DNA of 64,000 nucleotides, taken from the NCBI GenBank assembly GCA_008330645.1, contig VLTN01000030.1, positions 262,001-326,000 of the forward strand. Direction: 5' to 3'. Made by a program: the position numbers and the translations under genes. Below are positions 33,995-58,090 of this stretch, piece by piece (the stretch's first letter is position 1; the number at the start of each line of letters is the position of its first letter). Under the pieces are notes generated by a model. The model was not told the origin of the DNA, made no database searches, and was given only the letters and a program-made list of their open reading frames with translations. This DNA is from Cafeteria roenbergensis (Eukaryota > Sar > Bigyra > Bicosoecida > Cafeteriaceae).

Positions 33995-34958
33995 TCAGTC
34001 CGTGTGGAACACCTCCTCGGCCACCGCCCACCACGCCTTTCCCGATGCAGCGGCATCCGCCGAGCCCGATGCCGGGTCCGCAGCAATGCTCTCCTGGCTG
34101 CGAACAGGGACAGCGCCAGGTCGAGTCGGCAGCAGCGTTTGGCAGGCTGCAGCACCGTGCACAATAGCTTGCCCCGGACGGTTGAGTCAAGGGCCAGCAG
34201 GAGTCCGGCGCTCACCACGGGTCGGTGATCTCCCACCACCTGCGCGTGCTCTCGTCAGCGGCAATGGCCGCCATGTCAGCGTCCCAGTCCGTGCCCACGT
34301 ACTCAAAGTTGGCGAACAGCATCTCCGTTTCTGCGCAGCGGAGGCGATGCGCGGGCGCCAGAGCGCGGGAATGGGGGGGAGCTCTTGGGTTGGGCGGGAA
34401 ACCGTCTCTTTCGCGTTTTCCGCTTCGGAGGGCGTGAAACTCGACGCAACCCGGCGACGAGGCCGGCGCCTCGTGGCTCCGAGCCAGCGGCGCGGCGCCT
34501 CTCTCGACCCAGCTCGAGCCCCGGCCCAGATTCCACCTCTGGCCAAGCTCTCGCACCCACTGTCGCGGGGGGAGTGCACACGCCCCGCCATTGCCAAGCC
34601 GCCTCGCCTCGGGATCGCGGCGCGGCCCTCACCGCGGGAATAGAAGATCGTGTAGTTTCGGATGTTGCTCGCTGCGATGCGCCCCAGGACCTCGGGCCAC
34701 ACGGCTGCGTGCAGTTTCCGGTACCTGAAGTGCCAGCGATCCCGAAACGCCGGGAGGGACAGGGGAACAAAGAGGGGGCAACGGCTTGCCGCGACTTCTC
34801 GAACCGCCCGGCTGCCCGACGGCAACCGAGCCCCGAGCCGGGCACGCAGCGTCGGCTCGCGCGAGGCCGCGCCCTGCTCACTCGTCCAGCTTCTCCGGCT
34901 TCAGCCGGATGATCTGCGCGACGCGGCGGGGCTTGGTCGCAGTCGTTGCGTCTGCCAT
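33995..34958 (-). CDS. rhaM: L-rhamnose mutarotase (RhaM/YiiL family)
   Basis: Interconverts alpha and beta anomers of L-rhamnose. Four minus-strand exons, 34958-34882, 34724-34633, 34330-34216 and 34097-33995, give 128 residues. Splicing yields LKPEKLDEYRKLHAAVWPEV, which contains the conserved Tyr and His of the active site, then NIRNYTIFYSR, LFANFEYVGTDWDADM and WWEITDPCQES, and the closing WWAVAEEVFHTD. The Cys of TDPCQ is created by the last junction (TG then C). Reading on without splicing would stop at TGA two residues later, so the terminal exon is well supported. Introns of 157, 302 and 118 bases have good GTGAG donors; the first acceptor is TTCAG. No other rhamnose gene is nearby, so it stands alone. 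The start lies 281 bases from the F-box gene on the other strand. Confidence 0.92.
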
Positions 34959-35239
34959 TGCGCCTGGCCCGAGTGCGTGCCGGCCGTGGCGTGGCAACGC
35001 CGGCTCTGCAGCGGCCCGGCCCGGCCCCCATGCGAGTCCCTGGCCCGTGCTGGCTGCAGCAGCGCGCCCCACCTCGCGCACTCGGGGCCCTCCGATCCCG
35101 CGGACGACGGCGCTTGAACCGTCATTGGGCGTGCAGGCTCACCCCGGGTCTGCAGAGCCGGACGGCACATCAGGCTCCAGTCACCTGGACGCCCGACTCC
35201 CACCCTTGCCGCGACCGCGGCGGGTGGCCCCAGGGCGGG

Positions 35240-38200
35240 ATGGCTGGCCCTTCCGTCCTGACCGACCGCCCGGCTCTCTTTGGGCACGTGCTCGGCTTCC
35301 TCGAGACGCAGGACTTGGTGTCGGCCGAGGTGAGTCGCGCGGCTTGCTGCGTCAGCAGCATCGGGTGATTCGTTTGCGCGAGGCCCAGAGTTTTTGCAGT
35401 CCAGCCCGCGCTGTTCAGCAACAAAGCCGGGCCCGCTGTTCCGGACCCCATCGCCCCCGCTCCGCGCCGCGCCTCCTGCCCCTGGAAGCGCAGTGCGTGT
35501 GCTCGGGCTGGCTCAGGGCGGTCCGGTCACCCCACGTGCACCCCAGCCCGTGGGCAGTCCAGCTCGGCCGCACATTCTTCTTGTGGGACGACCAAGTGGC
35601 CTCGGCGGACGCGCCTCTCGGCCTCGAGCGCGCCGTTCTCGGCGCCCACTGCTGCAAACCACCGCCCCCCTCACCGTGGGCCGGCGCAACGCACGCCCAA
35701 GCGCGCTCTAGCCCGGGGCAGCTCCATTCCAGGCGCGCGGCAGAAGTCGAGGCTGCCTCCCCTGCCCCGCCGTCCAAGCGACCCCACCTCCAGCCCGGCG
35801 TGCCAAGCCATGCCAGCGAGTCATCTGCCACCTCCGCGGCTGTCGCTGGAGCGGCAGCGGACCGAGGCGGCGCCGAGCCCCTGCTGCCGCGCGCCCCGCC
35901 GTTGCGGTCCCCATCTCCGCCGCCGCGCCCCCTCGCCCAGCCTGGCGCTCGTGCGTCGGCCTCCCCGCTGCCCGCACTCGCCACAGCGGCAGCGGCACCG
36001 GGCTCGCCAGTGGCTTCACAAGCGTCATCGTCCACCGCTGCCGTCTCGCAACTCTCGTCGTCCTCCTCCTCCTCCTCCTCCACGTCCGCGACGTCGGCGC
36101 GCCTCTCATCGGCAGGAACGGGGAGCGTGTCGCGTCTCTCGTCTGCGACGTCGGCCCCCGTCGCTCAACAAGCCTCCTCGTCAGCAACGGACGCCGGGCT
36201 CGCAGCGGACGCTGTCAACAACACTGCAGCTGCCGCCGCCACAACACCTGCCCCGCCGCTTCCAACGGCAGCGCCTGCAGATCCTCCAGTCCCGGACTCA
36301 CAAGCGGCGCCGGTAGACCCAGCAAGGCGCCTCGGCTCGTCCTGGCAAACGCGACCGCAGCCGCAGCATGGACCGGTCGACGACGGCCGGCTTGCGCCAC
36401 GCACGGCTCTGCCTGCGGCAGCGGGGTCGGTTGCAGCCCCCACTCCGGAGCAGGGCCCCCAGGGGCAGGCACAGGGCCCCCCGGGGCAGGCGCAGGGCCC
36501 CAGGTCTAGGCCCCCGTGGTGGCACCCGCTCAGGCTCGACACACCTGCCGCCAGGGCCGTGATGGCGCGGCGACACGACCTTGACGCGCAGGTGAGGTCC
36601 ATCGTGCGGGTGGCAGAGCTGGGAAGGATCGCCATGGATGACGTCATCCACGCGATCATCCCCGAAGCCACAGGAGGCGCCAACGGCGACCACTCTTGGG
36701 GCGTGCCTGCCTTCGCCGACGGACCAGAATCGCAGCAGCTTCCTGCAAGCGACAGCTGGGCCCAATCCATCACCCATCAGCAGTCAGTCAGGGCAATCGC
36801 GGCTCTGCACACACTGCCGCTGTGCTGGAGGCAGGAGTCGCTGCTGCGGGTGTCGTGCGGGGCGGCGGGGGCCTGGCAGAGCTGCGGGGATAGGTGGTCT
36901 GCAGCCACCGTGTGGAGGGTGACGTGCGCGTCACTCCGGTCGCAGGACTTTGCGGCATCAGCTGGCACCGCCGAAGTGGCTCTGCCACCAGGCTCTGCCA
37001 GGCTGGATGGACCGACATTCGGGTCCGGTTTCGCCATCCTGCGCTGCATCTCGGAGTGCTGGTCGCCGGCGGAGGCGTATGGTGCGGTGGTTCACAGAGC
37101 CGCCCCGCCACACAGCTCTGCCGGCAGAGCCGTGCGCGCAGCAGTGAGCAACGTCATCCGAGCGGCGGGGCTGCGCCAACCGGCCGGCCCGGATGCCGGC
37201 GTCACTGCTGCCACCGTCACTGGAGCCAGCGTCGCTGGTGCCAGCGTCACTGCTGCCAGCGTCACTGCTGCCAGCGGCTCTGCTGCCAGCGTCTCTGCTG
37301 CCAGCGTCACTGCTGCCAGCGTCGCTGGTGCCGTCGGGGGTGGTGTGGGTGGAGCTGCCGGCGGCTTGGAAGGATTGGAAGGATTGGAAGGGTCTGCTGG
37401 TGCGCCGGAAACCCTGCGGCTCGGGTACGTTGAACTTCCCGGTCATTTGCTGGTCGCGGCTCCATCAGATGCGATTCTCGATGCGGCAGCGGAGTCGCTC
37501 GAAGCAGAGCTGCGCGTAATCGATCGGTCCGTCGGCCGCACCAGCGCTCGTGACACGGCCGCTCTCGCCGAAGAGCGAGCGTTTGCGCAAACAGCTGACG
37601 GGCAAGCTGGCCGCCCAGCCTGCAGTTCGAGAGACGCTGAGCGACCCGCTGCGCGCGCTCCGGCGGCCCCTTCACCTGCAACACATCCCAGCGGTTTCGC
37701 GTCCGGCAGAGCCAGAAACCCCTCCGACCCACTTCCAGCCGCCCTGGCCGCTGCGGCGACAGAGGCAAATGCGCCGCCGGACCTCCGGCGGGTGGCCGCG
37801 CTGATGCGAGCGGTTACACGCCACGTGGCAGCGGCGCCGGCGGACGCATACTTCGCCGCCTCCTCCAGCATGGTTCACAGCAGCCTGCGGGGGGGCGGCG
37901 CCCTGCCCATCGTAGCGTCATCAGCGCTGGCAGAGCTAGCTGGTAGAGCCGGCCTTGGGGGCACGTTCTGCATCGGCGCACCACTTCACTTCATCGCCGG
38001 ATACAGTCCGGAGTTGGCTGCCGCAGTCGCAGCCGAGCGCGAGGCGTCAGCTGACGCAGCCCCGCCCGTCACGGGTGCTGCTGGTGCTAGTGCTGGTGCT
38101 GGTGTTGGTGCTGGTGCTGGTGCTGGTGCTGGCATGTCAGCCGATGCTGCAGAGCCGTGGCATCCGCGTGAGCCTGCGAGCGCTGTCCTGGCCACATGGC

Positions 38201-39942
38201 ACTCCAGCTCTGCCAGAGCGCGTCGCGCCATGGAAATTGCCTCAGCGGTTTCACCGGACTCGGTGGGCGATAGCTCGAGGTGGTCCTTCCTCGACCCGTT
38301 TTCTGGCGAAACCGCCACGGCTGATGAAGCCCTTGCCACTCTTCACAGCCGGCTCGCTGCCGCTGGGCACCGTGCAGAGCTGGGCCCGGACCAGTTTGCG
38401 AGGTTCATGGCCCCGACTCCGGCACGCGAAACCGCGAGAAGAGTGGTAAGAAACCTGTTCAACGCTGATTGGAAAAGCAGAGCCCGTGATGCCAGCATGG
38501 TCATCGTTGCGGTTTCGCGGCTCTGCTTCGGGGCGTCGTCGTCGCCGCCCGCTGACGTCCTGACCCGGGCGGTTTCGGAGGGGGCCCTTGCCTGGGGCAT
38601 CGAGGGCAGGTCAGCGGTTTCGGCTCGGCGGCTCCGCTTTGCCGCCTGGAAGGAGTGGGGTCACTCAGGGTGCAAGGTGGTCGCCGAAACCGCCATGCGG
38701 TGCGGGCTGTGTCAGGCTGACGCGGGCAGTCGTGACTCCGGCTCTGCCACGGCAAGGGCTCTGTCGCCGGCCGCGGGTCCGACCCTCGCCCCGCAGCAAC
38801 CGCAACTACAACCGCAACTTCAACAGCAACCACTGCAGGGAGATGTCGCCGCCGGGCAACCGTCTGCTGAGCAGCTTGCGTTTCTGTGGGAGGGTATGCC
38901 TGGCCGGATGACGTGGCACGGCAGAGCTTGCGATGGCCCGAGCGGGGCGGCGGCTTTGTGGCTGGTGCGACGTCTGGCATCTCGTTGCGCTCGCCTGCAG
39001 AGTATGACCGCAGGCGGCGGCAGCGGCGGGGGCGGTGGCGGCGGGGGCGGCAGCAGCGGCGGTGGCGGGGGTGGCGAGGGCAGCGGCAGCGGCAGTGGGG
39101 GCGGCGGGGGCGGCGGGGGCGGCGGGGGCGGCAGCGCTAGCAGAAGCAACGGCAACGGCAACAGCAGCAGCAGCAGCAGTGCTGGCGGCAGCGGCAGCAG
39201 CAGCACCCCCCCCCCTGTGGCGGGTGGCGGTGGCCGCGGTGAACTACAGACAGCAGCGGCACCAGCAGCCGCTGACTCTGCCTCTGCTGCCGCCGCAGGC
39301 GGAGCGGCGGAACGCCCAGTGCCAGGCGAGCGAAAGCCCGCTGACGGCGCACCGGAACAAAGTTTAGCCGCCCCGGCGGCAGGCGCCTGCGGCTCTTGCC
39401 TCGTGGGGCCGTGCTGCCGGCTCCACCAGGGCCGCAGCTGGCCCCCCCCCCAGCGGAGCCCCGCGGGTCACTGGCCCGCTGGAACGTTTTTCCGCCACAA
39501 GCACACTCGCCACCGCTGCGTCATAGTGTCGGCTGATGCCGTCTGCACGGCCGACGCAGCGTGGCAGGCCCAGACCGGCGTGTCGGCGCTGTCCCGCGGA
39601 GCGGCGCAGCCATTCTACCGGTGCCTCGTCGATGCGAGGGACGTCGGCGCGGGGGTCGTCACGTACGTCCCTGATGACCTGGTCGTGATTGAGCCTCTGG
39701 AATCGGCGGAACCAACATGGCCGCATGCTCCGGAAGGCGCTGACGCGGCCGGGGCAGGCGCGCAAGCCGCGGCCGCTGGAGACCTGGAAGCGGACGTGAC
39801 CGCGTGCGTGCGGGTAGGGCTGGTGGTTCGTCCGGCCGACGGGTTTATGCACCCGCAGCTGGGCGAGTTTTTGCGATGCTCCTCGACACAGTCTGCTGTC
39901 GTGAACGCCCGGGGCCAGCTTCGCGAGGCCGACCACGCGTGA
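35240..39942 (+). CDS. FBXO21-like F-box protein with SirB1-like and YccV/HspQ-like domains
   Basis: Probable substrate receptor of an SCF ubiquitin ligase. Two exons, 35240-35329 and 35494-39942, give 1512 residues. The F-box spans the junction: LFGHVLGFLETQDLVSAE, then CVCSGWLRAVRS. A transglutaminase-like SirB1 segment lies at about 793-870 (SLRGGGALPIVASSALAEL and CIGAPLHFIAGY). The C-terminus (about 1355-1512) is a YccV/HspQ domain: FFRHKHTRHRCVIV, QTGVSALSRGAAQPFYRCLV and the closing HPQLGEFLRC. F-box, SirB1 and YccV in this order is the FBXO21 architecture, normally about 630 residues. Here the linkers are hugely expanded, with Ser runs, Gly/Ser runs (39010-39200) and Ala/Ser/Val repeats (37200-37330). 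The DNA words GGCTCTGCC and GCGGTTTCG are strikingly frequent. It is divergent from the mutarotase. Confidence 0.85.
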
Positions 39943-40474
39943 TCCGAGCGGCAACCTGGGGCGAGCAGGCTGGCGGGCCCGGCCCCTGCGTGGTCAGGTG
40001 CATGCCGGCCTGTTGCGTTGCTGCGCTGCGTTTAGGCGCGCTTCCTGTCTCGGAACCGGATTCCTGAATTATCCCACGGACCTTGTTGAACCGCTCGCTC
40101 TGTGCCCTTGGCACGTTGCCCAAGGCATGGACCGGGGCCGTCCGGGTGCCTAGTGTGCGTGTCTGGTGGCGCTCTTGTTGTGGCCGATGACCGCTTGCGG
40201 ACACCGCAGCCGCGCGCGCGCGCGCGCGCGTTGAGCCATTGCGAAACGAGCTGGGCGCGATTCCGAGCGACTGCCACCGCGTCGCTTTCCCGCCACGGAG
40301 GCGGCAAGCTCGCCATGCGAGCACACTGTTCGGAGCTCTGTTTGCGTCCGACCACACGCGGCAAGAGCCACTGGCGCATTCCGCGTCACCGGCACGGCGC
40401 AGCGTCGCAAAACGCCGCGCGACGGAGGCAGAGCAACCAGCGCTGCTACTGCAGCCGCACACACACTGCTTGCG
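39943..40474. other. intergenic with GC dinucleotide run
   Basis: Spacer between the F-box gene and the ankyrin gene. It contains a pure CG alternation at about 40211-40230. No gene was recognised. Confidence 0.5.
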
Positions 40475-43400
40475 ATGGACGTGCCCGTCGACTGCGAGGC
40501 GCCCCTGCGAGGTGCCGCCATCGCAGAAAGCGCCGTCAGAGGCGACCTGACCACGCTGTCGAAGCTCTTGGGCGCTGGCGCGAGGGTGGACTCCCCACTT
40601 GGGCCGGTGAGTCGCTGCACCGCTCTGGCCTCGTAGGGAACCGGTCAATCCTGCCGGCGGCGCCACCCGCGCTGCCGCGGACTGGCGGGCCAGAGCCGAG
40701 TGCCTCGCGATCACGTCAAATCGAAGGGTGCAACAGGGCAATCGGGCGCGGGGTCGAGCCTCTGGCACGGCTGCCTGCGAGAGCGAGCTTCGAAGCTCGG
40801 GGCGTTTTCCGAGCTCGCAGGAGGGCATGGCCGCGATCCACCACGCGGCGGCCGCGGGACACCCAGCCATTGTGTGCCACCTGCTAGCATACGGGGCATG
40901 GGTGGATGCGCGCGATGAGGTGAGGCGGGGGCGCTGCGGAGTCTGCCGGCGCCGGGGCTGCAGTTGCCTTTGCGCCCCGCAAGACAGGCTGCAAGGGAAC
41001 CGACTGCCGTTCCCTCCCCCTGCGCCTGGCCACGAGCCACGCCGGCGACCGGCCCCGTCCGCTGCGCAAGCGCGTGCAGAAGGGCCGGACTGCTGTCCAC
41101 CATGCTGCTTGGGCTGGGCACTCGTTCATGATAGACTACCTGGCGGACTGCGGCGCAGATCTCGACGCGAGGTGCAATGTGAGAGATTTCTGCCCGAAGT
41201 TGTCGGCCACACACCCGGGAAGGCAGGCGGGAGAGGCAGAATACGCTCGTCAGGAGTGTGCAGCTGTCACAGTGCGCAAACGCGGCGAGTGTGAGAGCGG
41301 TTCGCAGCTGGGATCAACGGCGTTGCACATCGCGGCGGAATCAGGTCACGCCGACGCGATTCGGACGCTGCTACTGCGCGGTGCGGGCAAAGACTCCCGA
41401 GGCGACGTAAGCTTGCAGTGCCACGGCGATGCGGCGCGCGCTGCGCGATTCGGTTTTCCCGCCAGTGGACGAATGAAGCGTGTCCGTCCGCCTCTGGCTC
41501 CGCTCCCAAGCCCACCACGACAAAGCCCCAGCCCTGGCTGCTTTGCTGCGGGTAGGCTCGTTACGCAAGTGCGCATTGCGTTCTGCGATGCCCTGTCGGC
41601 TGCAGGATGGAGCCTGCGCCCTCCACAGCGCTTCCTGGGAGGGTCATGTCGAGGCCGTCAGTGCCCTGCTAGACAGTGGCTTAGGCGTCGGCGCAGTGAC
41701 CAAGGTATGCGAGGAATACGCCGGCCGGCATTGCCGAGGAGGTGGGCAGATCGCTTGCCTGGGGACAGCCTTGGCCGCCAGCCAACGCGCGCCCGCCTGC
41801 GCCGCGACTACTGGCCGCCGAACCCCCTCCCGCAGTCTGGCCTCACCGCGCTTCACTGTGCTGCCGGCGACGGCTACACGCGCACCGCGGCGCTCCTGCT
41901 CCAGCGCGGTGCTGATGCCGAGGCCAGGGACCTTGTGCGGAAGCGCTTCCGCGGCGCTGTCCCTGCCTGAGATGCAGTTGTTGCCCCGCCATGCCACTCC
42001 TTGGAACCGAGGCCCGCCAGCCGCGAGAACGTTCGCCAGACACGCGTCCTCGTCCCGCGCGGCCTCGCTGCGGCGCGATGCAAGAGCCTTGGGCCGACTT
42101 GCGTCGTCGCCCTTCGTTTCCCGCCATTCCTCGCGCGAGGATCCGTCCGCCGCCTCGGCGCAGGATGGCCAGACGGCGCTGCACCACGCGGCAGCTGGGG
42201 GGCACGAGTCCGCCGTTTCCGTGCTTTTGGACAACCACGCCGACCTGGAGGCCGGGAGCAACGTCAGTGGGCTGGGCGCCGGTTTTGCCTCCGCTCCGCG
42301 TGCAAGCATGGGGCGCTGCAGAGACGGTGTGCCTGCCTTGGCTGGCTTGCCGGTCCACCATCTGGCCTTTGCTCGGACCTTGACCTCGCCGGAAAGGTGA
42401 AACATCGCCAACGGCCCGCAGGATGGACTGACAGCCCTGCACTATGCCGTGTGGGAGGGACACACCGGGGTGCTTCGGACACTGCTGAAACGCGGCGCCA
42501 GAAGAACCGCTCCGAGTCAAGTGAGCAACTCCGCTGCAGCTTGCGTCGCGATGATGCGCGATACCGCCGTGCGGATGCTGCGCACGAAACTCTGTCGACA
42601 GGCACGTCACCGGGGTCGCGGGAAGACAGGCCGCGTTTTGACGGCGCCATCGTGACGTGACCCAGAGGCGCCCCAGCCCGCGCGTCCGAAGCTCACGGCA
42701 TTTGGGCCGACCAACGGTCGGAGGAGCCTGCCCCACCAATTTCGGCCCAACCAACCTCGCAGACGACTGTTGGCGCGCTCCACCTCGCGGCCGTGCGGGG
42801 CAATGCGGGCATGGTCAGCGAGCTTGTCAAGCATGGCTTTGACCTTGAGGAATCGGACGCGGTGAGAGGCGTTGTGAATCCAGCCCGCCGCCCGCTGTCG
42901 TTTCGTCCCGAGGCATCTCTCGAGGGAGCTCACCGCCGCCGCCCACCTCTTATCGTCAAAGCCTCGACCACCGCAGGCTGGGCAAACCGCACTACACAGA
43001 GCTGCCTTGGGCGGGCACGGCCCAGTGATCACCAAGCTGCTGACGAGCGGGGCGCTGGCTGAAGCTCAGGCTGCCGTTAGTTTGGGGCAAGCGCTGTAGG
43101 CTCAGAGTTCAGTTCGGTAACCGGTTGGGTTCATATTTGTCCGCAGACGTAGATTCTACCCCGACAAAACAGACGAGCCATCTGGCATCGTCACGACACT
43201 CTCTTGGGCTACGCGGCTCCCCCACAGCGTGCTGGGGGCTGCCCTCGGCGTGACTCAGAGGGTCCCGAGCTCTGGTCTACCCGCCTGCGTCGGCGGCCAA
43301 GACAAGCAGCTCGCCGGCAAGGCGCGCGCAGCGTGCGCTTCGCTTTGCCCGCCGTGCCGTGCGAACGCTCGCACAGCACTCCAGGGCCCGTTGCGGTCGG

Positions 43401-45027
43401 CTTTGAGGTTGTGTGAGAGCAAAGCCGCATTCGTGACCCGCCCGCCCATCCCGCGGCAGGCTGGGAGGTGGCTTGCGAGGTTTCAGTGCCCCTGTGGGTG
43501 CAGACTCCGAGCAAGGCACTGCCACTCCTAGCCTGCTGGCGCCGGACACCTAACAGGTGCCCATTTGGCCACTGCTGGATGCGTGATCACCATTCCCTAC
43601 GATCACACGCACCAGGGCGAATCGGAGGCGTTGCCGGACAGCGACAGCATCGCCGGGGCTTGGAAGCTCTGCCGCGCGTGGTCAACTCCACGCAAGTGTG
43701 TGCGCTCCGCCGTTGCCACGGTATGGCGTCGCAGAATGGCGCCACTGCACTGCACGTGGCCGCAGAGGCGGGGCACGTTTCTGCAGTTGAGATCTTGCTT
43801 CAACTCGGAGCGGACATCGCAGCCACGACGAAGGTCGGTAATGTGTAGCCTCTGTCACGGGCTTTGAGGCATGGCCATCGTTCACAAGCGTTGGCCGCTA
43901 GCTACAGGCATGGTCCGACCCGTAGTGACGCACTTGCTGCTCTGCATCGCCTCCGCGCAGACGGGAGCGACACCGCTTCACGCTGCGACAGCACAAGGCC
44001 ACGTCGACGTTGTTCGCCTGCTCCTTCGCCGCGGCGCCGCGGTGGGAGTCACGGACATGGTGAGCGTGCCCGCCAGGGCGCCTCAGCGCCTGGCTTTTCG
44101 AAAAGACGTCCGAGGCGGCTTGTCCTGCACCCCGAGCCCCTGTATCCCTTCTGCCGGGGGCACACCCATCACCCATGCGCTCGGCAGGTGTGCGGCCTCG
44201 GAGGATCCCGAAAGTGAGAACTAGCGCAAGGACCAACTGCCTGTCGCATCAACTCGATGCGGATTCCGGCCCGCTTTCCCTCCTGATCGATGAACCGCAG
44301 AGGGAATGGACTGCACTGCACGCGGCTGCCGCTGGCGGGCATGAAACCATTGCTGGGGTGCTTCTTGAAAACGGGGCGGACCCAGGCGCCAAGGCGCAGG
44401 TTCGAAATCGGCTCGAGCGTCAGGCAAGGCCGGGGCTGCGCCGAACTGTTTGACGACGAAGAACAGGTCGGGCTGGCAACCAGGGGGGCATAAAGCGACG
44501 CCTTGCATCCTCGTGCCATCACCAGCAAGACATGCCGACTCGCCATTCGTGCTTGCCCGCAGGGGGTCACTGCGGGAATGCTGGCGAGCGAGAACGGTTT
44601 TTTGGCCCTCGCTCGAGGCATCGACGGCGTGAGCGCCGCAAGCCAGTTGTGGCCGGAGCTGCTAGTGATTCGACGAGAGGACCCCTGTCCGGTGTGGCCT
44701 GCGGGGTGCGTTTCGCCGACTGGCGGTTGCTCACCTGTCTCCGACCCTCGCTCAGTTGCCGAACGGGGCAGCGGACAGTCTCCCATCCTGCTCAACGCCC
44801 TTGCCGCCTTGAAGGTGGAGGCAGACCTTCGAGGGGAACTCGTTGCAGCCGCTGACACCGAGGCCCAGCTCCGCGCTGAGCTGGCTGCGTCGGCGACGGC
44901 TGAGGCGCGATTGCGTGCCAAGCTAGCCGAGGCGGCCAAGGTCGAGGCCAGGCTGCTGGCGACGTTGGCTCGCCTGGAGCCTCGCGCACACGCTCAGCGA
45001 CCGGTGCAGCATTTGCCTGACGGTTGA
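40475..45027 (+). CDS. ankyrin-repeat protein, one 99-base exon per repeat
   Basis: Fourteen phase-0 exons encode 594 residues. Exon 1 (40475-40606) has 44 residues. Twelve exons of exactly 99 bases follow, starting at 40821, 41080, 41308, 41606, 41836, 42164, 42422, 42763, 42977, 43735, 43961 and 44301. Each encodes one full 33-residue ankyrin repeat beginning at the consensus turn (for example DGQTALHHAAAGGHESAV, TGATPLHAATAQGHVDVV). Exon 14 (44563-45027) encodes a C-terminal domain ending in an Ala/Glu/Leu coiled coil (about 522-580, LRAELAASATAEARLRAKL). Introns are 115-242 bases except the tenth (659). Donors vary (GTGAG mostly, also GTATGC, GTTAGT, GTCGGT, GTTCGA), and all acceptors end GCAG. 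Ankyrin stacks bind proteins; no catalytic domain or membrane segment is present. Intron 13's GTTCGA donor is the weakest call. Confidence 0.88.
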
Positions 45028-45712
45028 GTTCCGCTTTCGGTGTGAAAGAGGGGGGCTGGCCCGTGGGCGAGTCGGCCAACGCCTCCGCTGGCCCTGCCGG
45101 CCGCCGCTGCCTTGAGAGGCTTCGGCTGCAAATGCGCGTATTGTCTCCTTCGAATCCTTTCGGCTCAGGTGGCGGGCAGGAAGCGCCAATCATGCCTGTG
45201 CCAAATTCACCGCATGCATCGCGGAGCGCAACCACGCGAGCCGCCCTGATTCCACCTCGCCGGGCTTTGCCACAGCACTGCATTTATCAACGTAAGTCAC
45301 GCACTGGCCGGCAGCGCGCAACGGCTGCGCCTGGACAGACAACACAGCGAATCGGGAGCCGAAACAGATGGGCTCTTCGTTTGCTTCACAGCTGCGATCG
45401 CCAACGAGGCACAGCTGCGCCGATGGCTCGCTTGCTCTCCAAGCAGCGCTTCACACTGACACAGGCCTTCCGTCAAGCAAGTCGCGAATGAGGCAGCAAA
45501 TTCGGCATCGACAGCAGTGGCAAACGCGCCACTCAAGATGCAGGCAGGGGACACCTAAAAGCCCCTGCCGCACGCTGGGAGGGGGCAGGCGCAACCGCAT
45601 TCAACCAAAACCAGCCAACTCGGCGCGTGAGATCCGCAGTCCCGCGCACGAGACGACGCGAGGCGCAATACCCGCATGTGGCGTGCAAGCAAGCATACAA
45701 CAGCCACCTCGA
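45028..45712. other. convergent intergenic gap
   Basis: Space between the ankyrin gene and the giant TRAPPC10-like gene. Composition is less GC-extreme than in the genes. No coding, RNA or repeat feature was recognised. Confidence 0.5.
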
Positions 45713-48700
45713 TCAGCTGACGGTGTCTGGCGCAGGGTCGTTCACAGCGGCGACAGGCGGTTGCAGCGCCGCTCCGATGTGCACGAGGCAGACGGCTGAC
45801 TGGCACTGCCTGCGTGGCGCTGGACCGGCTGGCTCAGCGGGCTGCGCTGCCCGGAGTCGCTCGGGAAGCGGCTCTGCCCGACGGCGTCTGTCCCACTCGG
45901 GCACGAGGAGTGATGTTGCTTCGACGGCCACTGACAGAACTGGGCACTCATCCGACGTCACAGAAACGCCCAGACTGAGGTCAGACGCCGCGTCGCGTCG
46001 CCGCTCCCACGCCAGAGCGGCATCCGACACTGGAACCCTAAGCACCACCACGCACGGACCGGCACTGCTCTGACGCCTGGCGACGCACACAGAGGCAGTG
46101 ATTTGCCCGTGACTCTCGAGGGACGTCAAAATGACTGGCCGGGCAATCTTGGAGCCGGGGAGTGGCTGCCACTCTGCACCGCGGAGGTGGCGCCAGGCAG
46201 ATCCGGTCACGACGCAATCACCCGAGTCGCCTGAATGGTCCGGGAATTCGACTGGCGCTCCATCAACCGCCAGCTCTGCCGCAATCCGCAGCGTGACGAA
46301 CGGATGAGGGCTCGCCCCAGTTGCGGTTGCAGTTGCAGTCCTCAGGGGTGGCGAAGGGGGCATTGCATCTTCCTCAACTGCAACTGCAACCTCAAGCATG
46401 GTGGTCGGAGCTGCCTGCCGATGTCCATCAAGACGGACGAGTCGAGACGTCGCGATGATGGGGCATGATGGCCGAGGGACCACGCATGTCGCCTGACGGT
46501 CACCTGAGGGCGTAGGCCCTCCCATGACGAAGCTCTGCCGAGACGCGTCTCGAAGCGCCGAACTCCACCCCGGCCCCAACAAAAGCGGCGAAACCGCGCC
46601 GCGTCGCTCCTGAATCGCCCGCTCAGCTGTCGCCCATGCACGGCTCCGGCTCACAGCAGCCGGAGCCAGCCTCGCGCGGCTCGCCGGCCCACCGTCAGAA
46701 ACGCCCAACGGCCGTGAGTCCACAGCGCGGCGTGGCTGACCCGCGCGCGGCGGCGGCATTCTCCCGCCAGCAGCAGAGGCGGCAGCTGCTGCAGTGGCAC
46801 CACCATCTGCTGCTGCGGCAGCACCATCTGCTGCGGCAGTGGCACCATCTGCTTCTGCAGCGGCAGCAGTCACTGGCACCGGCGCTGAAGGTGCTGCGGG
46901 CGGCGCCCCTCGGCGGTAGAGCTCGCTACGCGCAGCTTCGTGCAGAGCCACTTCGGTGCTGGACAGAGCTCTGAGCGACGATCGCTGAAAGACCAGCCCG
47001 CAGCTGAGAGCAACCCTAACCGCGTGAATGACCCACACGCCAGGAGGAATCCTTCCTACCGGCACACGGACAAACGTTGGCCCGGGGGCAAGCGTCACTG
47101 CCGCCGGTGACTCGAGGCCGACGTGCAGCGAGTGCTGGTTCGTCAGACGCGGGGTCGCTGGAACCGTCACGATGAGAGCTCTGCGAACGCCCTTGGGTCG
47201 ATGGCGCCGACTCGAAGTGTGCTTAGGGGTGGTGGCTCTGCCAGCAGGGCCCTCGGTCGTCAGCTGACCAGGCTTCGCCGGGGGCTTGGGGCGACGGAAC
47301 CCAGTCAGGTGCGTGTCATCGCCAGCAGCAGGGCCCGTCGCTGCCCGGCCGTCTCGATGGGTCTGACTCAACGGACCACCACTCTGAAGAGGCCGTCGAG
47401 GCGAAACCGACATGGCAGCAGCCCCACCGGCAGCCACGGATCCCAGCCCCATACTAGGTTGGGTGAGCGACTCCTCGACAGAGACAGAGCGACGCACCGC
47501 TGGGTCATTGTCGGATGCGCCCGCAGGCCGTCTTGCAGCCTCTTGGTCAGGTTGCAGTTGCAGTTGCAGTTGCAGATGATCGCCCGACGCTGGGAGCGAC
47601 ACCGATGGCCGCAGCGGCGGTGGTGGCGGTGACCCAGCGTTGACCGATGCGCGATGTGGCTGTGATGTGACCGGCTGATGCAGTTGCTGCTGCTGGGGCA
47701 GGCTGGGCCCAAGCGGTGGTCTCTCGCTGTGGCGTCGGCGAATCGTTTCGCCGGCAGGCAATCGCTCTGCAGAGCCGTCGATGACGTCAGAACCCAAATC
47801 TGCAGGGTGGGCTGCGGGTTCTTCGTCCGCCGCCGCGGCTCTGTCTGCGTCGCCAGGGGCTTCCGGCGGCTGGATCACCGTGACTGCGCCGTCGGTGAAT
47901 TCGTCAATCGCCCACGACCGGACGCTGCTTCTGGCAGAGCCGATGCTTCCAGACTGGTGAATCGCGTGCGATCGACCAAACGCCCCCAGCGACGGAGTCG
48001 AGCTCCGCGACCCGCTTCGGACAAATGATCCGCCGACGCGGGCGCCCGAGTCGGTCGAGTCGATTGTCGACCGACGTGACAAACCGCCGGTGTCAGACCC
48101 ACCGATGTCGTGACCTGTGGCGGATGTGACAGGACCCATCGCGACTGCGCGGGGCCCCGGGCGGTCGGCCCATCCAACGGATTCTGAGTCTGACAAACGC
48201 GATGATGGTCTTTGAGACGACGAAACCGCTGAAGCCTCCGATGCCAAGGAATCGACTCGCGAGCGACGATTGACGATCCTTCCAGCCATCACGTCTCCAT
48301 CAGCCGGCGGCAGAGCCATACGACCGCCTCCAACGGACACGCTCGATCGCGTGGTCTGACGGCCCGTTGCTGCCCTGGCCGCATCAGCCGCCGTAGCTGA
48401 CTCTGCAGCACCATGCGCGGTGACGTCATCCGCGTCACTGTCGTCGCCGGAACCAGCAGCACCACCAGCGGCAGCACCACCAGCATGGCCAGCGCCAGCA
48501 GCAGACACAGCGCCAACACCAGCGCCAGCGCCATATCCGGGCTTGTCGTCAGCCGCACCGCTGATGGCGGTTTCACCATGGGTGGTCGACGTTTCCAACG
48601 GATTTGCATCTTCTGAGCCCGGCTCTGCCAGCACTTCGAAACAATGCTGCTCTGCCTGTTGCAGAGCTGTCCAGGCGGCAGCCGGCAGGAGTGTCGCGCC

Positions 48701-51700
48701 TTCCGCGAGCCACAGGGCCCCCCGACGTGAAACCGCATCGTCAAGGAGGACCCTCTGATTGCTGGATGACCGCGAAGTGGCAGAGCCAGACCTGCCGCTC
48801 CCGCGAGCACCAACACTTGTTGCTTGTGCCGCTATGCGCTGTTGATGCTCAAGTGATGTGGGTGGCGGCAGAGCTGCGACGTCAGGCCGAACCCTGAAGA
48901 GCTCCTCACGGGAGCGTAGCGGTGAGACGTCAGCAGGGTCCAGCAGATCTGACGCGACATACGCTTGTCCTGAGGCTATCAAGCAGACTTCATCCGTGAG
49001 GCCCTGGCCCGCTGAGCGCAGGGCTGGGGGGCCTCGACCGCTGCTGCCACTGGGCGCTGCAGCTGCGGTTGCTGTCGCACGCGCTGTTGCAGTTGCAGCT
49101 TCAGAGCCTGCATGCGGCGTGGCCGTGCCTGCACCTGGGGTCACTGCACCGCAGTGCATGCGAAGCCGCTTCTCGGCAAGAGTGGCAGCCTCCTCTCTCG
49201 CACGAAACCGCTGACTGGGCTGTGACTCGCGACTCCGGAGCCAGTTCTCAACGGATCGGTTTTTCCAGAGCGACGCTCGCAACCAGTGCCCGGAGGCGGG
49301 GCTGTCAAGAGGCGCGGCGGCGAAACCGCGCATGCGACGAAGTGCCTCGCTGCGGTTTCGCCTACGGATTCGACGGAGCGCCGTTGCTGCGGAGATGACC
49401 GGGTTTTGACAGGGCCGTGATGGCTCAGTGCGTCCAAATGTGGCGCCTGTTCCCGAAGCGGTTTCACCACTGGGAGACGGGGTGTCGGCGCTCGCCATCT
49501 CCGTCGCGATGGCGGCAAGCAGAGCCGATCCTTCCAGCTCGAGGTCCGACGTCGACGGGTCATCGTCAAGGTCTGGGTCGTCGCCGACGGAGGGCGAAGG
49601 CTGCCACCCATTCTGGAAGGATCCAAGCAGAGCCCAAGGTGCCGATGTTGACGACTTCACAGCAGGGTGTCCGTTCAGTGACGCAGATGTGACGCTGAAG
49701 CGTGTTTGACTCGACTCTGACTCTGGCTGCGACCCCGTCAGCGACCCAGCACCAAGAGCTGCCGGGACTGCCGCCACGCTGGCGGGGTCACTGGAATCAG
49801 CAGCGCCATCGCCGCCAGCCACGTCGCTGGCGGGGTCACTGCCAGCGACGTCCGCAGCCTCTGGAGCTGCCGCTGCGGGTGGCGAAACCGCTGGATCGGG
49901 CTCGGCAGGAGCCGGTTCGACACCGCCACCGTTGCCGCGACCGGTGCCGGCAGCGTCGCCGTCGCCGTCGCTGGTGGTCGGGCCAGCGCTGGATGCACAT
50001 GTGACTGACCACAGATGGATCAGTGACAGGGCCCCTGCGAACCTCGCGGGGTCCACGGCGGCATCGCGAGAGTCGCTCTTCACGCGACGTAGCTCGATGG
50101 ACAGCTGAGCGACACCAACGGACATGGAGCTTAGCGTGTTGGTCAACATCACGAGCGCATCAGCTGCGCCACCGGCTGGCGGGAGAACGATTGGCCCGGA
50201 ATCCCGGCTTGTGAGCGCCCAAGTGCCCAGCTGTTGGGCGTTGCAGCGAGCGCTGTGCGATTGTCCAGTGGCGGGGTCAGACGCAGCCGTCAGGATGCCA
50301 GCTGCTGAGAGAATTCCATCGGGCAATTGCAATGCCGCCGGCCAAAGACCCGAGATGATCGGACGTTTCGAGTCGTTGCCCGGAGTGTGGGTTGACCGGC
50401 CGCTGACCCGTGTCTGATGGACACAGCAGGTACCTGCCTTGCCGCGGTCGACATCTCTGCTGTTGCTGTCGTCACCACCGCCATCGGCAGCTACGGCGGA
50501 AACTGCAGTAGTTGTAGTTGTAGTTGCAGTTGCAGCAGCACCGACGCTTGCTGCGGGACCCATCACCGGTCCCCCCGGGGCCCCAAGTGACGTCGCTTCC
50601 ACCTCCCCCTCAAACACGCGCAGTGACTCCGGGTGACTCAGCTGCTGTAGCAGCGATGATGCGACCCGTGATGCCGCGTCGACCAGGATCTGACCCGGCA
50701 GAGCCGGTCGAATGGCGAGCAGAGCCAGAGAGGCAGCGCCTGCCCCGTCGATGACGGTCCTCACGGCTGCAGTCGCAGCGGCATCACTCTGCTCAACCGA
50801 CGAAACCGCACCCTCCGCGGCCCGCATGCCACAGCTTGCGTCGCCAGCGGCAGCCTGCTGCTGTTGCTGCTGCGCCTGTTGCTGTTGTGACGACTGCAAC
50901 TGCAACTGCAACTGCTCGGAACCGTCAGCAACGTCTCTGGCGAGATGAGCCCCGCCGTCACTGGCCCACAGCGCTGCCAGCGCCATGACCGCGCCGAGCG
51001 ATGTGTCCTTGACCGAGTGGTGACTGGCATCGGGTCGGGCTCGCCGTCCGCTGGCCAAGGATCTGCCGAGCGCAGTTGCTGCTGCTGCAACCGCGCGAGA
51101 GGCCGCCTGTGGTGTGGACGGACGGGCGGCTGACGACATCACGACGCCATCAGCTGACGACATCAAGTCGCCATCAGCTGACGAGTCGGAGCTTGAAGAC
51201 GATGACTGTGGACCAACATTGCCAACGATGCGGACCGCACGCTCTGCCGACCGGCAGAGCTCCTTGATGCAATCAGCGATGTGACGCGACACGGCGTCTG
51301 TCACCACCGCCTCTGCCACCCTGGCAACGTGATTCCCGCTTGACGCCATCGCTTGCAGGGCGGCTCTGCCGGTGCTGTGCTGAACGAGCTCTGCCGCAAT
51401 CGCCTCGCATTGACGGGCTGCAGAGCCGACTTGGTGAAGTGGAGCTTGAAGGGTGGTGAAAGCAGGGTCCATCAGCTCCCCATCAGAACCAGGTCGCTCA
51501 GACATCAGTTCCAGCGCATCGAGAAGAGCCGACACCGCCAATCCAACGGATTTAACAGCGTCGCTCATTCTGATGAGCGACCCCATCCGCGCCAGCAACT
51601 GCCCGGAGCCGTGCATGCCTCTGGAACACAGTGCCAAGCCGCGCGCCGTTAGCATATCAGCGGTTTCGCGCCGCCTGTCGGGCAGAGCCCACTCTCCATG

Positions 51701-54700
51701 GCACCACAGCATAGCGCGGTTCAGCGACGAAGTGGACTGCAGAGCCAGCATGCGCCACGGCCCAAAGCGAAGGCTCTTCCATCGACGAACCGCTGACGAC
51801 GCAGCCGACATGGCAGACAGGAGCTCCGACGATGTTGACGTCGGCGGCGCATCACGAGAGCCGTACGACGCCGGTGACGCGGCCAATGATGGTCCGGCGT
51901 GGGTCCGGCTCGACGTCGACTGACTGCCCAGGCCAGGCATCGTGCTGTGCTTTGGACTGCCTGCTGATGGCCTGGAGACTTGCTCGTGATTGGCCGAATC
52001 GAGAGATACATCGAGGGATGCAAAGGCGTCTCTCACCCGCGAACCTGCGGGGCGGTTACTGAGCTGGTGACGACGCGGTGACATGGCAGTGACCCGATCG
52101 ATGAAATCCACCCGACCCGCTAGCCCCGCTGCGCGCAGTGGTGACTCCACACCAGCACCGGCACCGGCCCCGGCTTCCGCGTCGGGTGCCGTTCTTGAAG
52201 TGGCTCTGCCGGCAGGGCCGAAGCCGAATCCGGATCCAGTTCCCATGCGGGAAGCGGGGGACGCAGACGATGACCAGGGAGTGATGTTGCGGCGACTGGC
52301 TGGTGATGCTGCGGTCGGGACGCCAGCCGATGAGGCTTGCCGCTGCTGCTGCGGCTGCTGCGAGTAACGGTCGATCGCCTCCTCCAGCGCATCGGCAAGC
52401 GAAGTGGCTCTGCCCAGGCAGTTGGCTGCCGCGTCGCTCAGTCGCACCGTGAGAGACGCCCCCTTTCGCCACGGCCTGCGGATCGCCGCGCCGAGAGCGC
52501 GCGCGGCCGAAGACTGGCTCCGGCAGAGCCACGCGCCGTAGACCGACAGCACGGCAGAGCCGGACCACTTCACGTCGCTGGAGGGATCTGCGGCGGCAGA
52601 TCGGTGAGCGGCTTCGCCTCCTGACGCAGGGAGCGATTGCGAAGGAGGTCTTGATGGCATGGTGATGGACGGACGATGTGATGGTGATGGAGGGGGTGTG
52701 AGCAGCGCGAGCGTGCGCCGAAGCGGCTTGGACGCTTGCTTGTCCGGAGTGTTGGTCAGGCTGGCTGAACGAGTCAGCTGATCGTCGGATGGCGTCAGCT
52801 GACCGAGACCTGAAGCGGGATGTTCGGCTGTGCGGACGTCGACGGTGGGCGGGGGTGCCGGATGCGGTGACTTGGCCGAGGACGATTGCGGTTGCTTTGG
52901 CGGCGACGACGTCAGCAGCTGCGGCGGCGGTGGCGGCGGCGGCGGCGGCGGCCGGGGCTGTGGCGGTACTGCAGAGCTCGGCAAGTGACTTGGTCGAGAT
53001 GGAGTCGTGACTTGGCCGAGATCTGAGCGTTGCGCGGGAACCACACCGTCCGACCGGCGGCGGCGGAACAATGGGCCGGGAGGCCCGGAAACGGTGGCAA
53101 CTGCAACCGCACCAGTTGCTGATACACCCGGCCCCGCTGGCACTTCGTGCGGTTTCGTGCCATCCATGAGGAGCGCCGCCCGTGCCGCAGCTAGCAGAGC
53201 CCCGAGGCGACGCAGGGCAACAAGGTGAAGTGAAGCACGCAGTGACTCCACGTCCAGTTGCTCTGCCAGCAGTTTGAGCGACGCTGCCCCGTGGACTTGG
53301 CCGCTGGAGGTGCCCACGGCCTCGTCAAGGCTGCGAGCAAGACGCGACGCCGGCTCGGCCAAACTTTCAGCCGTATCCATGGCCAGGCAGAACGAGGCGA
53401 CGTCGGCCGCAGCGACCATACCGGCAGCGCGCGGCATTGCTGGCGTGCCTGCCGCCGCCGCCGCCGTTACCCCGCGGCCGCCAACGCTGCCTGGCTCTGT
53501 CTGCGTGAGGCCTGGCCGGAACGCCGTCGCTGGGGTGTCCGTTGCGGAGCCGGAGAGAGACAGTCTCGCACCGACATTGGGCCCAGGCTCTGCTGCAGTT
53601 ACGGTTGCAGTTGCGGTTTCACGAGCAACGGAGTCAGACTCGCTGGCCTGGAGCCCCGGCCGCAGCCCTCCCCAGCCCGTTGATGTTGAACTTGCAACGA
53701 CAGTGTGACCCCTGCCAGACCTCGAAGGCATCGGTACAACCCACCGCCCGTTGAGACTGCAAGTGAAGCGACCCTCCGCATCGGCGGCAGGAACTGTCAC
53801 CTCCTCCGGCGAAATGAGAGAGGCGGCGAGGTCGCTGAGATCCGACCCGCCAGAGAGAGCTCCACTGCCGGCAGAGCCTTGCAATCGAGAAGCTCTGCCG
53901 GCAGAGCCGTCAGGTTGACTTGAGGCGGCTGCTGGGGCTAGGGGTGTCTGCATGACCGGCTCTGCCGTCAGCTGATGCGCGGGGCTTGCCCTCGCAGTGG
54001 CGTGGCTGTGCCACTGATTGGCAGAAGACTCGGCGCTGACCCACTCGTGATGGGCAATGTTGAATGCCGTGGTTTCTGCTGTCAGCAAGCAGGATCGGTG
54101 GGTCAGACCCAGCTTCCGGCAGAGCTGCGAACACCTCACTGACAAGTAGTCGATGACGTCAGCACGAGACAGCGTCCCGATGGACCCGTGATGGAGGCGA
54201 GTCGTCGCTCCAGGCTGCAAGGCAGGCGGCGGCAGAGGCAGCTCTGCCAAATCGGATCCTTCTCGCGTCACATCGGCAGAGCCACCTCGCGAACCAGTCA
54301 CAGGCGAATCATGCGCCAGTCTAGATTCCATCAGCTGACCACGCTTGCCGCTGTCGGTCCGGTTGTCGCCGCCGCGACCGCCGCCCCGTGACCGCGCCAG
54401 CGGCGAGGACGTCAACACTGCAGATCCACTTCGAAGTGGGAAGTGAGGGTCGGAAGGGGCCGGCGACGACACCGCTGCCAAGTCGGGGTCTGTCGCTTGC
54501 AGTGATGCGCGCGTGATGGCCGAGAGACACTGGTCCACGTGCGCGATCAGACATGTCACTGCAGAGCCGTGAGCTAGGGGCGGCGGCATACACGGCAGGG
54601 GAACGTCCCTTCCAGACGAAGTGGGATGACCATCGAGGAGCTCTGCCGGCTCTGCCGTATTGACCATAGTCCACCACTGGCGCAGCTGCGGCGGCGGCGC

Positions 54701-57700
54701 CGTCGCGATGGCGAGAGCCTGTGCTGCCAGCCGCATGGCTCTGCCGGGGTCACTCAGCGATAGAGCTCTGCCGCCTGTCAGCGCTGCGACGGCGAGACGT
54801 TGGCGCCGATGACGCTTGGCTGCAGAGCCGTTGAGACGTCGGCGAGATGACCTGATCCTGCCGCCGAGCGATTGACCAAACGCAGCGGGAGACGCTGGGC
54901 TCCTGCCTGATGATCGCGTGACTGACCGAGGACTGGCCCGTGATGGGCTGCTGATTGGGCGGAGACCTGCATCGCGTGAGGTCGTCGAACCACCGGCACG
55001 ATCCGCAGCCTCATCACCGGCCCCAGAGACTTCACTGGGGCCGTCAGATGCTGCTGCTGCTGCTGCGGCGGCGGCGGCAGCGGCGGTGCCGCTGGAGGAC
55101 TGGAGCGGTTTCGCAGCGGCGCCGGGTTTGGCAGAGTCTTGGCTGAACGCGGCACTGTCAGAGGCCCGGCGTGACGGAGACACTGCCGCCGCCTCATCAG
55201 CTTCAGCTGCAGCTTCAGCTGCAGTTGCAGTTGCAGTTGCAGTTGGTTGCCCATCTTGGTGCCCAGGGCCCCCCCGGGCATGTGCGGTCCGGCTGCCGCG
55301 GCCTGTGGACGGCGCGCGCCCGGAGTGTCTGCGAGATTCTGCCGCCATAGCCTCCGCGACGGCTCCCGCCTGTCTGCCCCACATCAGGCGCTGTGATGCC
55401 GCGCGTGACTTGTGCTTGACTGGCTCGTGACTGGGGTCACCCGCTGCGTCGTCCACGTCCAGCCCGACCTCAGCAGCGGTTTCGTCGGTTTCACGGGGTG
55501 TGACTGCGTCGGGCTCCGAGGCGTCAGACCGCGGCTCGTCACCGTCGTCCTCGTCGCCAGCAGCGGTTTCGTCGGGGTCAGTTCCGGTTGGACCACCATC
55601 GTCCTCTATGAGCGGCAGTTGCAGCTGAGCATCCGGCGTCGATAGGGCTGTGAGGCGGCTCTGCTTCGACGGCCGACGCCGCAGTGATGGACGCTTGAGC
55701 TTCGAGTGACCCGGCTGGCCACCCGCCGACGCCGAAGCCGACGCCGTAGTCGTCGTCGTCGTCGTCGTCGTCATGCTGCCGGGGTCTGGTGCCGCCGACC
55801 CCTCCAGATCGAGCGCAGCCACTGCCCGCAGCCGGCTCTGCCGGAAGTCGCGCGCTCCCAGCTCTGCCGCTACAAGCAGAGCCGACAGCTCGCTCTGTCG
55901 TGACGCGGTCATGACCACTCGAGGCGCCTTGGGCCCGTCGTCCAGTGACCCAACCAGCAGCCCGGCCTCTGCATCACTGGACGAATCATCGGCGGCAGCA
56001 TCAGCGCCGCCGTCGACGCAAGCGCTGCCTTCGCCCTCGGCGCTGTCCTCGCCGCTCCCGGCTCTGCCGCGGGTCACTTTGTCAAGATACCTCTCAAGCT
56101 CTGCCATGCTGACGCCTCCCAGTGTCGGCAGAGCTGCTGCTCGGCGTTTCGCGACAGAGTCGCGCACCGGATTGGCCCTGGCAGATTCACCTGAAGTTGC
56201 AGTTGCAGTTGCAGTTGCAGTAGACCGAGCGATGCGCCTCCAGTGACCGGCCACGTCGACACCCTGCATGTCCGGCTCTGCCATCACCACCGAGTCAATG
56301 AGTGACTCCTCCTTTCCAGAAGTGACCCACCCTAGTGCCACTCTTGCCGCGGCGTAGCCTGCAAGGGCATCCTGCCCGAGGCCGGCTCTGCCCAGCAGCC
56401 GGCAGCGGCTGTCCGCTATGGCGAGGAAGCGAAGTAGAGCTGACCAGTGACCCACGGGAAGTGAAGCTGTCGCTTCCGAAACGGATCGGTACGATATGGC
56501 CAGGGCGTTGCTCAGGCCAACCTCCACGGAAGAACGAATGACCGAAACCAGAGACTCCAGGGAAGCCCACTGCAGCGGTGCGGCGGAACGATTGGCCGCG
56601 GCGCCGCTCCCAGCCGTCGATCCCCGGGACCCCGCCGACGCGTCGCCAGTGGCCTGTCGTCGCCCAGTGATGCGCCCGCGAAACCACTCGTAGCCCGCCC
56701 GAAGTGGAGGCGATTGCGATTGACGAGGCGCGCTGGCAGAGCCGCCTCTCGCTGCTGACGAATGCCTGCCTGACCCGGCACCTGCCGCAGCGGTTGCAGT
56801 TGCGCTGGGGTCACTGGAGCCATCGTCTGACGGGTCGACCCTCGCCACCTTGGCGGCAGCGGCTGTTGCAGTTGCAGCGTCGTTGGGAGTGACCACCACG
56901 AACGGAAGTGATGGGCCCCTCGCCGGCGAAACGTCCCGCCGAACAGCGTCACACGCCGCGGTGGCGGCGCGGGCAGCCGCCCGGGCCCTGCGAATGGTGT
57001 CACTGCCGCTGCCGGTGTAGCTGACTGGCTGAAGCACGAACACCACAGCCGCGGCAGTGACAGCCGCGCCACTGCCGCCGCCGCCGCCCCCGCCGCCGCC
57101 GCCCCCGCCGCCGCCGCCGCCGGCCGCCGCCCCACCGCCCCCCGCTGCTCCGGCTGCTGACGACGACAACGACGACGACGACGACGGCAACAACCCGGCT
57201 GTCGACCCCGCCCCTGCGGCAACATCCTGGTTGCAGGCACGCACAAACGCTGTCACTGTGTCGCGAAACCGCCGGGTGTAATCAGGCTGCGTGGGACACG
57301 ACACGACCAGCAAGTGACTCATTGCGTCACGGTGCCAAGCGCCTTCGCGAAACCGCAGCTCTGCCGATCGGATGGAAGTCAGCACCGGGTCTTCGGCGCG
57401 TCGTCCCCAGCGCGGTGAGGCTGATTTGGGGGTGATGGCGACGTCGACGAACCGGTGCCGGAAGTCGACGTCGATCGGTTCGGGAAGCCGGTGCGTGAGA
57501 GATGCCTCCCGGCCAATTGATCCGCCGAAACCGCCAGCACCAGCGCCAGCGCCACCGCCTGTGGCAGCGTCAGCACCGGCACCAGCGCCGCCACCGGCAC
57601 CCGTTCCAGCGCCGCTGCCCGTGCGGATGCCGACGTCTGCGAACGTGGGCGTCAGCAGCGAGTCGTGGGGCGGAGCGAGGGGGTGGCAGGGCGCCGCGGC

Positions 57701-58090
57701 GATGCGAGGCTGACGGAGTGGCCGGCTGGCTGGGCCTCCGGCCATAGGCAGCACGCGGCTGCCGGCAGCGCGAGCGACACGCCGCCATCAAAACCAGCGC
57801 GAGACACGCGCCGCCAGCGCCGCCAGCTGCGCCACCGAAGCCGGCGTGGCTACTTGCTGCATGAGGGGGGAGAAAGGGTGGCCCCTTGGGGGGCAAGGGC
57901 CCGGCTTTTGCTCACTCGTCAGAGGCAGCCAGCGAGCTTGCAGCTGCTGCTCGATGCTGGGCCACAGGCCGCAGGTGTCGTGCACCGCCACCGGAACGCG
58001 CGCCCAGTCAGCGTTGAACGAGTCAGGGGTGTTGCGCAGCGACCGCTCCCTCGCCCAGGCCGGGAACTCGCCGTCAGCGCCGGCCGCCAT
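45713..58090 (-). CDS. giant TRAPPC10/Trs130-like TRAPP II subunit, about 4032 residues
   Basis: TRAPP II is the Golgi exchange-factor complex for Rab11/Ypt31-type GTPases. Minus-strand exons 58090-57916 and 57636-45713. Exon 1 carries the TRAPPC10 N-terminal pattern VAVHDTCGLWPSIEQQLQAR followed across the junction by WLPLTN, comparable to WPSIE-x-L-x-x-RLPLRN in the family. A second shared element is HLLVVSCPTQPDYTRRFRDT near residue 166. A helix corresponding to the family PGW/ALxxYDEL region is GRAGLGQDALAGYAAARVAL near residue 460. The remainder is interspersed with Ser, Gly, Pro, Thr-Ala and Gln runs and acidic patches; ordered islands (for example ADMLTARGLALCSRGMHGSG) recur to the end. 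Typical family length is 1100-1260, so this is more than three times larger. The 11.9 kb frame is uninterrupted. Family identity rests on short N-terminal matches; the C-terminal half is not confirmed. Confidence 0.65.
46320..56880. repeat. dispersed GTTGCA/TGCAAC hexamer arrays inside the TRAPPC10-like gene
   Basis: Short arrays of the same hexamer occur near 46323, 46379, 47549, 49070, 50508, 50886, 53598, 55198, 56196, 56791 and 56866, in two orientations. On the coding strand they are read as Leu-Gln, Thr-Ala or Val-Ala repeats depending on frame and orientation, so the DNA repeat, not the peptide, is what is shared. Confidence 0.75.
57058..57140. repeat. CCG-type run encoding poly-glycine
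   Basis: Nearly pure ccgccgccgcc sequence on the plus strand, read as Gly-Gly repeats near the N-terminus of the minus-strand TRAPPC10-like protein. Confidence 0.75.

Follow-up and report, generated by a model that had tools for sequence, protein, structure and literature searches.

The window, as we call the whole 64-kb stretch of DNA that was analysed, carries on its forward strand a gene that in the full model spans 40475-45027, with 14 exons and 594 residues, and in which a degenerate cap repeat is followed by 12 ankyrin repeats, a half repeat and a coiled-coil-like tail (Table 1). Between 40821 and 44399 lie 12 phase-0 exons of 99 bases each, equivalent to 12 ankyrin repeats of 33 residues, and all of them translate to 33 residues without insertions or deletions. 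The repeats follow the 33-residue consensus GxTALHxAAxxGH, the same as that of ankyrin-repeat proteins generally, with H9, A11, G15 and L23 invariant in all 12 and up to nine residue types in the other columns. In the spliced protein these tandem 33-residue repeats score above the Pfam cut-offs, which places it in the ankyrin-repeat superfamily (Ank_2, E 1.2e-79 and 263.4 bits with a cut-off of 27.3; Ank, 231.6 bits with a cut-off of 21.1), and all seven Pfam families found at E 0.001 are ankyrin-repeat models.

Exon 1 ends at the repeat position common to the gene, and an in-frame stop is present upstream of it at 40232 with no in-frame ATG between. The open frame at 40235-40633 gives a weak match to the ankyrin profile (E 0.32) in the part that becomes exon 1. 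Exon 14, when read by eye, starts with a degenerate repeat whose cut is shifted by one codon downstream relative to that of the other exons, and its tail shows a 14-residue period, EAxLRAxLAxxAxx, also seen by eye. This period suggests a coiled coil and hence a multimeric scaffold, the tail being the part that would multimerise the protein.

Table 1. Exons of the ankyrin gene and two of its introns, in positions of the window.
Feature	Position	Strand	Remarks
Exon 1: start codon, short N-terminus, degenerate N-terminal cap ankyrin repeat	40475..40606	+	132 bases, GTGAGT donor
Exon 2, repeat 1	40821..40919	+	99 bases, phase 0; scan, profile, splice sites, register
Exon 3, repeat 2	41080..41178	+	99 bases, phase 0; scan, profile, splice sites, register
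Intron 3	41179..41307	+	129 bases, open, multiple of three
Exon 4, repeat 3	41308..41406	+	99 bases, phase 0; scan, profile, splice sites, register
Exon 5, repeat 4	41606..41704	+	99 bases, phase 0; scan, profile, splice sites, register
Exon 6, repeat 5	41836..41934	+	99 bases, phase 0; scan, profile, splice sites, register
Exon 7, repeat 6	42164..42262	+	99 bases, phase 0; scan, profile, splice sites, register
Exon 8, repeat 7	42422..42520	+	99 bases, phase 0; scan, profile, splice sites, register
Exon 9, repeat 8 (the furthest diverged; 27-36% identical to the other repeats)	42763..42861	+	99 bases, phase 0
Exon 10, repeat 9	42977..43075	+	99 bases, phase 0; scan, profile, splice sites, register
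Intron 10	43076..43734	+	659 bases; other introns 115-242
Exon 11, repeat 10	43735..43833	+	99 bases, phase 0; scan, profile, splice sites, register
Exon 12, repeat 11	43961..44059	+	99 bases, phase 0; scan, profile, splice sites, register
Exon 13, repeat 12	44301..44399	+	99 bases, phase 0; scan, profile, splice sites, register
Exon 14: C-terminal half repeat, linker, tail, terminal stop codon	44563..45027	+	half repeat read by eye

The gene content of the window is eukaryotic and its GC content is 62-73% in 2-kb steps. A Cafeteria-like bicosoecid might, at a guess, match such a composition, a published account giving about 70% GC and 1.67-1.89 introns per gene (PMC6972860). With 13 introns in 4.6 kb the ankyrin gene looks intron-dense beside its neighbours, as judged from open frames, five of which exceed 1200 residues in the window. 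Pfam models were run on 14 of the 86 surrounding open frames listed with at least 200 residues. The genes of the window include a PDE4-like phosphodiesterase, RPS13, an LSM protein and a STE24-type protease, and there is a match to the cytosolic domain of 10TM transporters. The top matches of RPS13 are probably plant ribosomes, which is not diagnostic. On the reverse strand, 45713-57754 is taken up by a single open frame of 4013 residues that converges with the ankyrin gene; it contains several simple-sequence stretches and has no Pfam match at E 0.001. Upstream, at 34786-39942 (+), an open frame of 1718 residues stops roughly 0.5 kb short of the ankyrin start codon. It contains a YccV-like domain along with a transglutaminase-like match below threshold, an arrangement that presumably resembles that of FBXO21. 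The PDE4-like frame at 6-3644 (+) has an interrupted catalytic domain, residues 892-1022 standing in place of about 25 residues of PDE4A, with a GGC-rich tandem repeat at 2860-2940 in the interruption, which is either an insertion or an unspliced intron. No tRNA genes were found in the window, and no RNA families either in the window at the gathering score or in 40400-45400 at E 0.1. For relatives on viral contigs, nine stretches fit a pattern and none of the nine encodes a relative at E 1e-3.

When 40401-44900 was scanned for 99 open bases with AG before them and GT or GC after them, 35 stretches came up. Twelve of these are the ankyrin repeats. The remaining 23 are without relation to the repeats and coincide in part with introns, or with exons read in another register. 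When a profile made from the 12 repeats was run against the six frames of the window it matched the 12 strongly, the next match being at E 0.24, and no further strong ankyrin match is present in the window. As the exon limits could have been picked to fit, the register was slid by up to 40 bases in either direction as a control. At zero shift AG, GCAG and GT are present at 13 of 13 introns, while at every other shift they are present at no more than three, two and four of the 13, respectively; within the gene AG occupies 5.8%, GT 4.7% and GCAG 0.9% of positions. Thus the 12 internal exons are of constant length with a single repeat in each, and the 13 introns all start with GT, end with GCAG, lie in phase 0 and share one repeat position, the last junction being one repeat codon short. 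The first-pass annotation had described 12 consecutive 99-base, phase-0, single-repeat exons with a constant boundary; the exons are confirmed in all 12 cases by scan, profile and register slide, and the boundary by the agreement of all 13 sites at zero shift only. On its sequence the ankyrin gene is a genuine exon-repeat array, old and highly regular, with an architecture of a kind already known.

Splice sites were ranked by a model trained on the other 12 introns. The chosen donor ranks first in eight of the 13 introns and fourth or better in all 13 (among 7 to 19 GT candidates within 150 bases), and the chosen acceptor ranks first in seven and fourth or better in 12 (among 13 to 23 AG candidates). 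The branch-point motif CTNAY was found in the last 60 bases of only two of the 13 introns and gives no support. By eye, the RPS13 gene of the window appears to use GTGAGT and CGCAG signals like those of the ankyrin gene, so that these are likely to be the signals of the host. RPS13 also has an apparent 21-base internal exon at 24339-24359 (+) between two introns, with CGCAG before this exon and before the next, again by eye. At 40821 and 41080 (+) a second AG lies three bases past the acceptor of repeats 1 and 2 in a NAGNAG-like arrangement, and use of the alternative acceptor could lead to the loss of one codon.

Eight of the 13 introns contain an in-frame stop, and four of the other five have a length that is not divisible by three. 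Intron 3 is the only one that is not forced by frame or stops, and reading through it would add 43 residues between repeats 2 and 3. Its donor ranks first of 17, its acceptor ninth of 23, the worst of the set, and the pyrimidine share before this acceptor, 0.35, is the lowest. Since it alone can be read through and has the poorest acceptor and the fewest pyrimidines, intron 3 is the likeliest to be optional, if any is. The earlier model of 14 exons and 13 introns therefore stands for the 12 introns that are compelled by length or stops, with intron 3 placed by geometry and by the likeness of its splice sites.

Pairwise identity between the repeats has a mean of 39% over residues (27-55%) and 49% over bases (35-60%), and adjacency does not raise the similarity of two repeats (permutation p 0.68). 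By codon position, identity is 0.55, 0.57 and 0.35 at positions 1, 2 and 3, with 0.29 expected at position 3 from composition, reflecting coding constraint and old divergence. With third-position identity near chance and no signal of order the duplications are old, in agreement with the original suggestion of old rather than recent duplication, and a recent tandem burst is ruled out by these two observations together with the mean identity of the repeats. The best pair of repeats reaches 55% residue identity, so that the recent or ongoing reshuffling of repeat exons of the brown-algal type is not seen. The mean similarity that the repeats retain could be maintained by the constraint of the consensus alone.

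The 13 introns, of 115 to 659 bases, were compared in 78 pairs after trimming 8 bases from each end. On the same strand the mean score is 18.5, against 17.8 +/- 0.4 for shuffled sequences. Only the pair of introns 4 and 10 rises above the shuffles, with a score of 36 against maxima of 23-34 in 30 shuffles; the match is marginal, lies in a GC-rich stretch and was not taken as homology. On the opposite strand the best score is 25, reported without a shuffle baseline. That the introns are unrelated in length and sequence, as had been claimed, holds when all thirteen are aligned mutually, bar this marginal pair. A lost repeat in intron 10 was also considered and rejected, as a frame-shift-tolerant profile scored 17.1 there against 17.9 +/- 2.8 for shuffles, 22 of 40 of which scored as high; the reverse strand gave 17.7, without shuffles of its own. 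By comparison, the 12 exons, each left out of the profile in turn, score 29.2-70.7, and the maximum in the 40 shuffles of intron 10 is 24.6.

In the usual numbering of the ankyrin repeat, residues 2 and 3 lie in the loop joining neighbouring repeats. The exons here, which we take to begin at consensus residue 3, with the conserved glycine in the next codon, are cut between these two residues, and because the cut falls in the inter-repeat loop each exon is a frame-neutral unit. The codons at the junctions belong to the most variable positions in the repeat, with nine residue types at exon codon 1 and eight at codon 33 over the 12 repeats. The MAG|R pattern of a favoured insertion site is present at two of the 13 junctions (15%), against 22 sites in the 1785 coding bases of the gene (1.2%). 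For targeted insertion this share is small, but it clearly exceeds the frequency over the whole coding sequence of the gene, making this a weak argument.

These observations bear on how the introns came to share one position. An intronless ankyrin array might have gained its introns singly at the same place in each repeat, the position being set by a signal in the sequence or by a periodicity of the repeat DNA or its chromatin. Independent insertions would be expected to leave introns without mutual homology, as is found beyond the one marginal pair, the surroundings look intron-poor, judged by the long open frames alone, and MAG|R is more frequent at the junctions than elsewhere in the coding sequence. 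However, 11 of the 13 junctions are without MAG|R and the junction codons vary strongly, so that no common target sequence is visible today, and we consider such piecemeal gain improbable. The shared register and phase in the absence of a visible target would instead speak for duplication of an intron-flanked exon rather than for introns inserted one at a time. The two MAG|R sites in 13 argue, if weakly, that the register is better accounted for by copies of an existing unit than by 13 independent insertions.

It would therefore seem likely that the locus is a functional nuclear gene encoding an ankyrin scaffold of 594 residues whose repeats grew anciently by duplication of one intron-flanked 99-base exon. 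The repeat domain would have been built long ago as this exon was duplicated through recombination between introns; as the introns have no common sequence beyond the marginal pair, we infer from position alone that the flanking intron was duplicated with it. Ankyrin arrays bind proteins via variable surface positions, and the repeat surface of this protein, if the gene is expressed and functional as we would expect, presumably also binds proteins in a scaffold role.

Animal ankyrin genes such as ANK1 have single-repeat 99-base exons, and the animal ankyrins carry 24 repeats followed by ZU5, UPA and death domains. A member of this family (ANK1/2/3 type) acquired from an animal with its 99-base exons kept would account for the exon length, and the top natural structure matches, within the best 60 of 463, are ankyrin-1 and ankyrin-1/ankyrin-2 chimaeras, although these fall below a designed repeat protein and the matches listed include many unrelated ankyrin-repeat and designed proteins, as similarity of consensus would give. 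The protein has about 14 repeats rather than 24, and no ZU5, UPA or death domain is among the seven Pfam families found in it at E 0.001. With these domains absent this is not an animal-type ankyrin gene, and acquisition from an animal is extremely unlikely. For the ankyrin-repeat superfamily as such, regular one-repeat exons are, to our knowledge, not a feature. The nearest works are probably those of Street et al. 2006 and Zambounis et al. 2012. Among the literature matches listed, with most subscription journals outside the coverage, no title or summary describes an ankyrin gene of a protist in which each repeat has a 99-base exon of its own.

The correspondence of exon and repeat itself has precedents. 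In repeat proteins the exons often comprise whole-number multiples of the repeat unit, and in 26% of the human repeats classed as 'separated' an exon contains no more than one unit, according to PMC3995336; the present gene resembles such animal repeat genes in that its exons hold whole repeat units. Exon shuffling may account for some, though not all, repeat expansion (PMC1553488, in the part available). The accessible text of PMC5135030 has giant exons rather than repeat exons as its subject, and in that of PMC8781854 a term search finds no mention of exons or introns. Among the literature matches the closest likeness is to the LRR-ROCO family described for four brown algae in the available sections of PMC11378527, where one LRR is encoded by each 72-base, phase-2 exon, gene SJ02233 has 16 such exons, the exons shuffle as units and diversifying selection is reported. 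Both systems have one solenoid repeat per exon with constant exon length and phase, but the algal genes combine 72-base phase-2 LRR exons with ROC-COR GTPase domains whereas here the exons are of 99 bases, in phase 0 and encode ankyrin repeats. The same text also refers to NB-TPR genes of Ectocarpus, in which TPR exons are shuffled, and to the similar-sized LRR exons of the rat luteinizing hormone receptor gene (PMC11378527). To call the present array remarkable, as the first-pass annotation did, is thus an overstatement, one solenoid repeat per exon being already established, for instance in the brown algal ROCO genes (PMC11378527, as far as available).

A further proposal had been that exons could be skipped without harm to the frame, and indeed the frame is kept in 12 of 12 single-exon skips and in all 78 skips of contiguous blocks. 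The exon lengths alone produce this result, which is no sign that skipping takes place. Active alternative splicing, in which combinations of the 12 symmetric exons would give varied repeat numbers and binding faces, is compatible with ancient duplication of an intron-flanked exon. It has a precedent in the alternative transcripts of brown algal LRR-ROCO genes, as many as nine in Ectocarpus according to the available text (PMC11378527), and in-frame retention of intron 3 could add to it. Against it, the splice sites mostly look usable, with no donor and only one acceptor ranked below fourth, and the repeats are old and without recent reshuffling, so that we regard such use of the array as unlikely and constitutive splicing of all exons as the default expectation. 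A combinatorial binding protein, with varying sets of exons, intron 3 sometimes kept and many variants, would make the gene the ankyrin counterpart of the brown algal LRR arrays, which by analogy is conceivable but quite unlikely.

With frame-neutral exons cut in the loop between repeats, the gene would be a convenient system in which to ask whether splicing to different repeat numbers is used or merely possible. It provides a very regular natural match of exon and structural repeat outside the animal ankyrin family. If the lineage is stramenopile, the ankyrin repeat would join the LRR exons of the brown algae, and the TPR exons cited with them, among the repeats that are encoded in this way.
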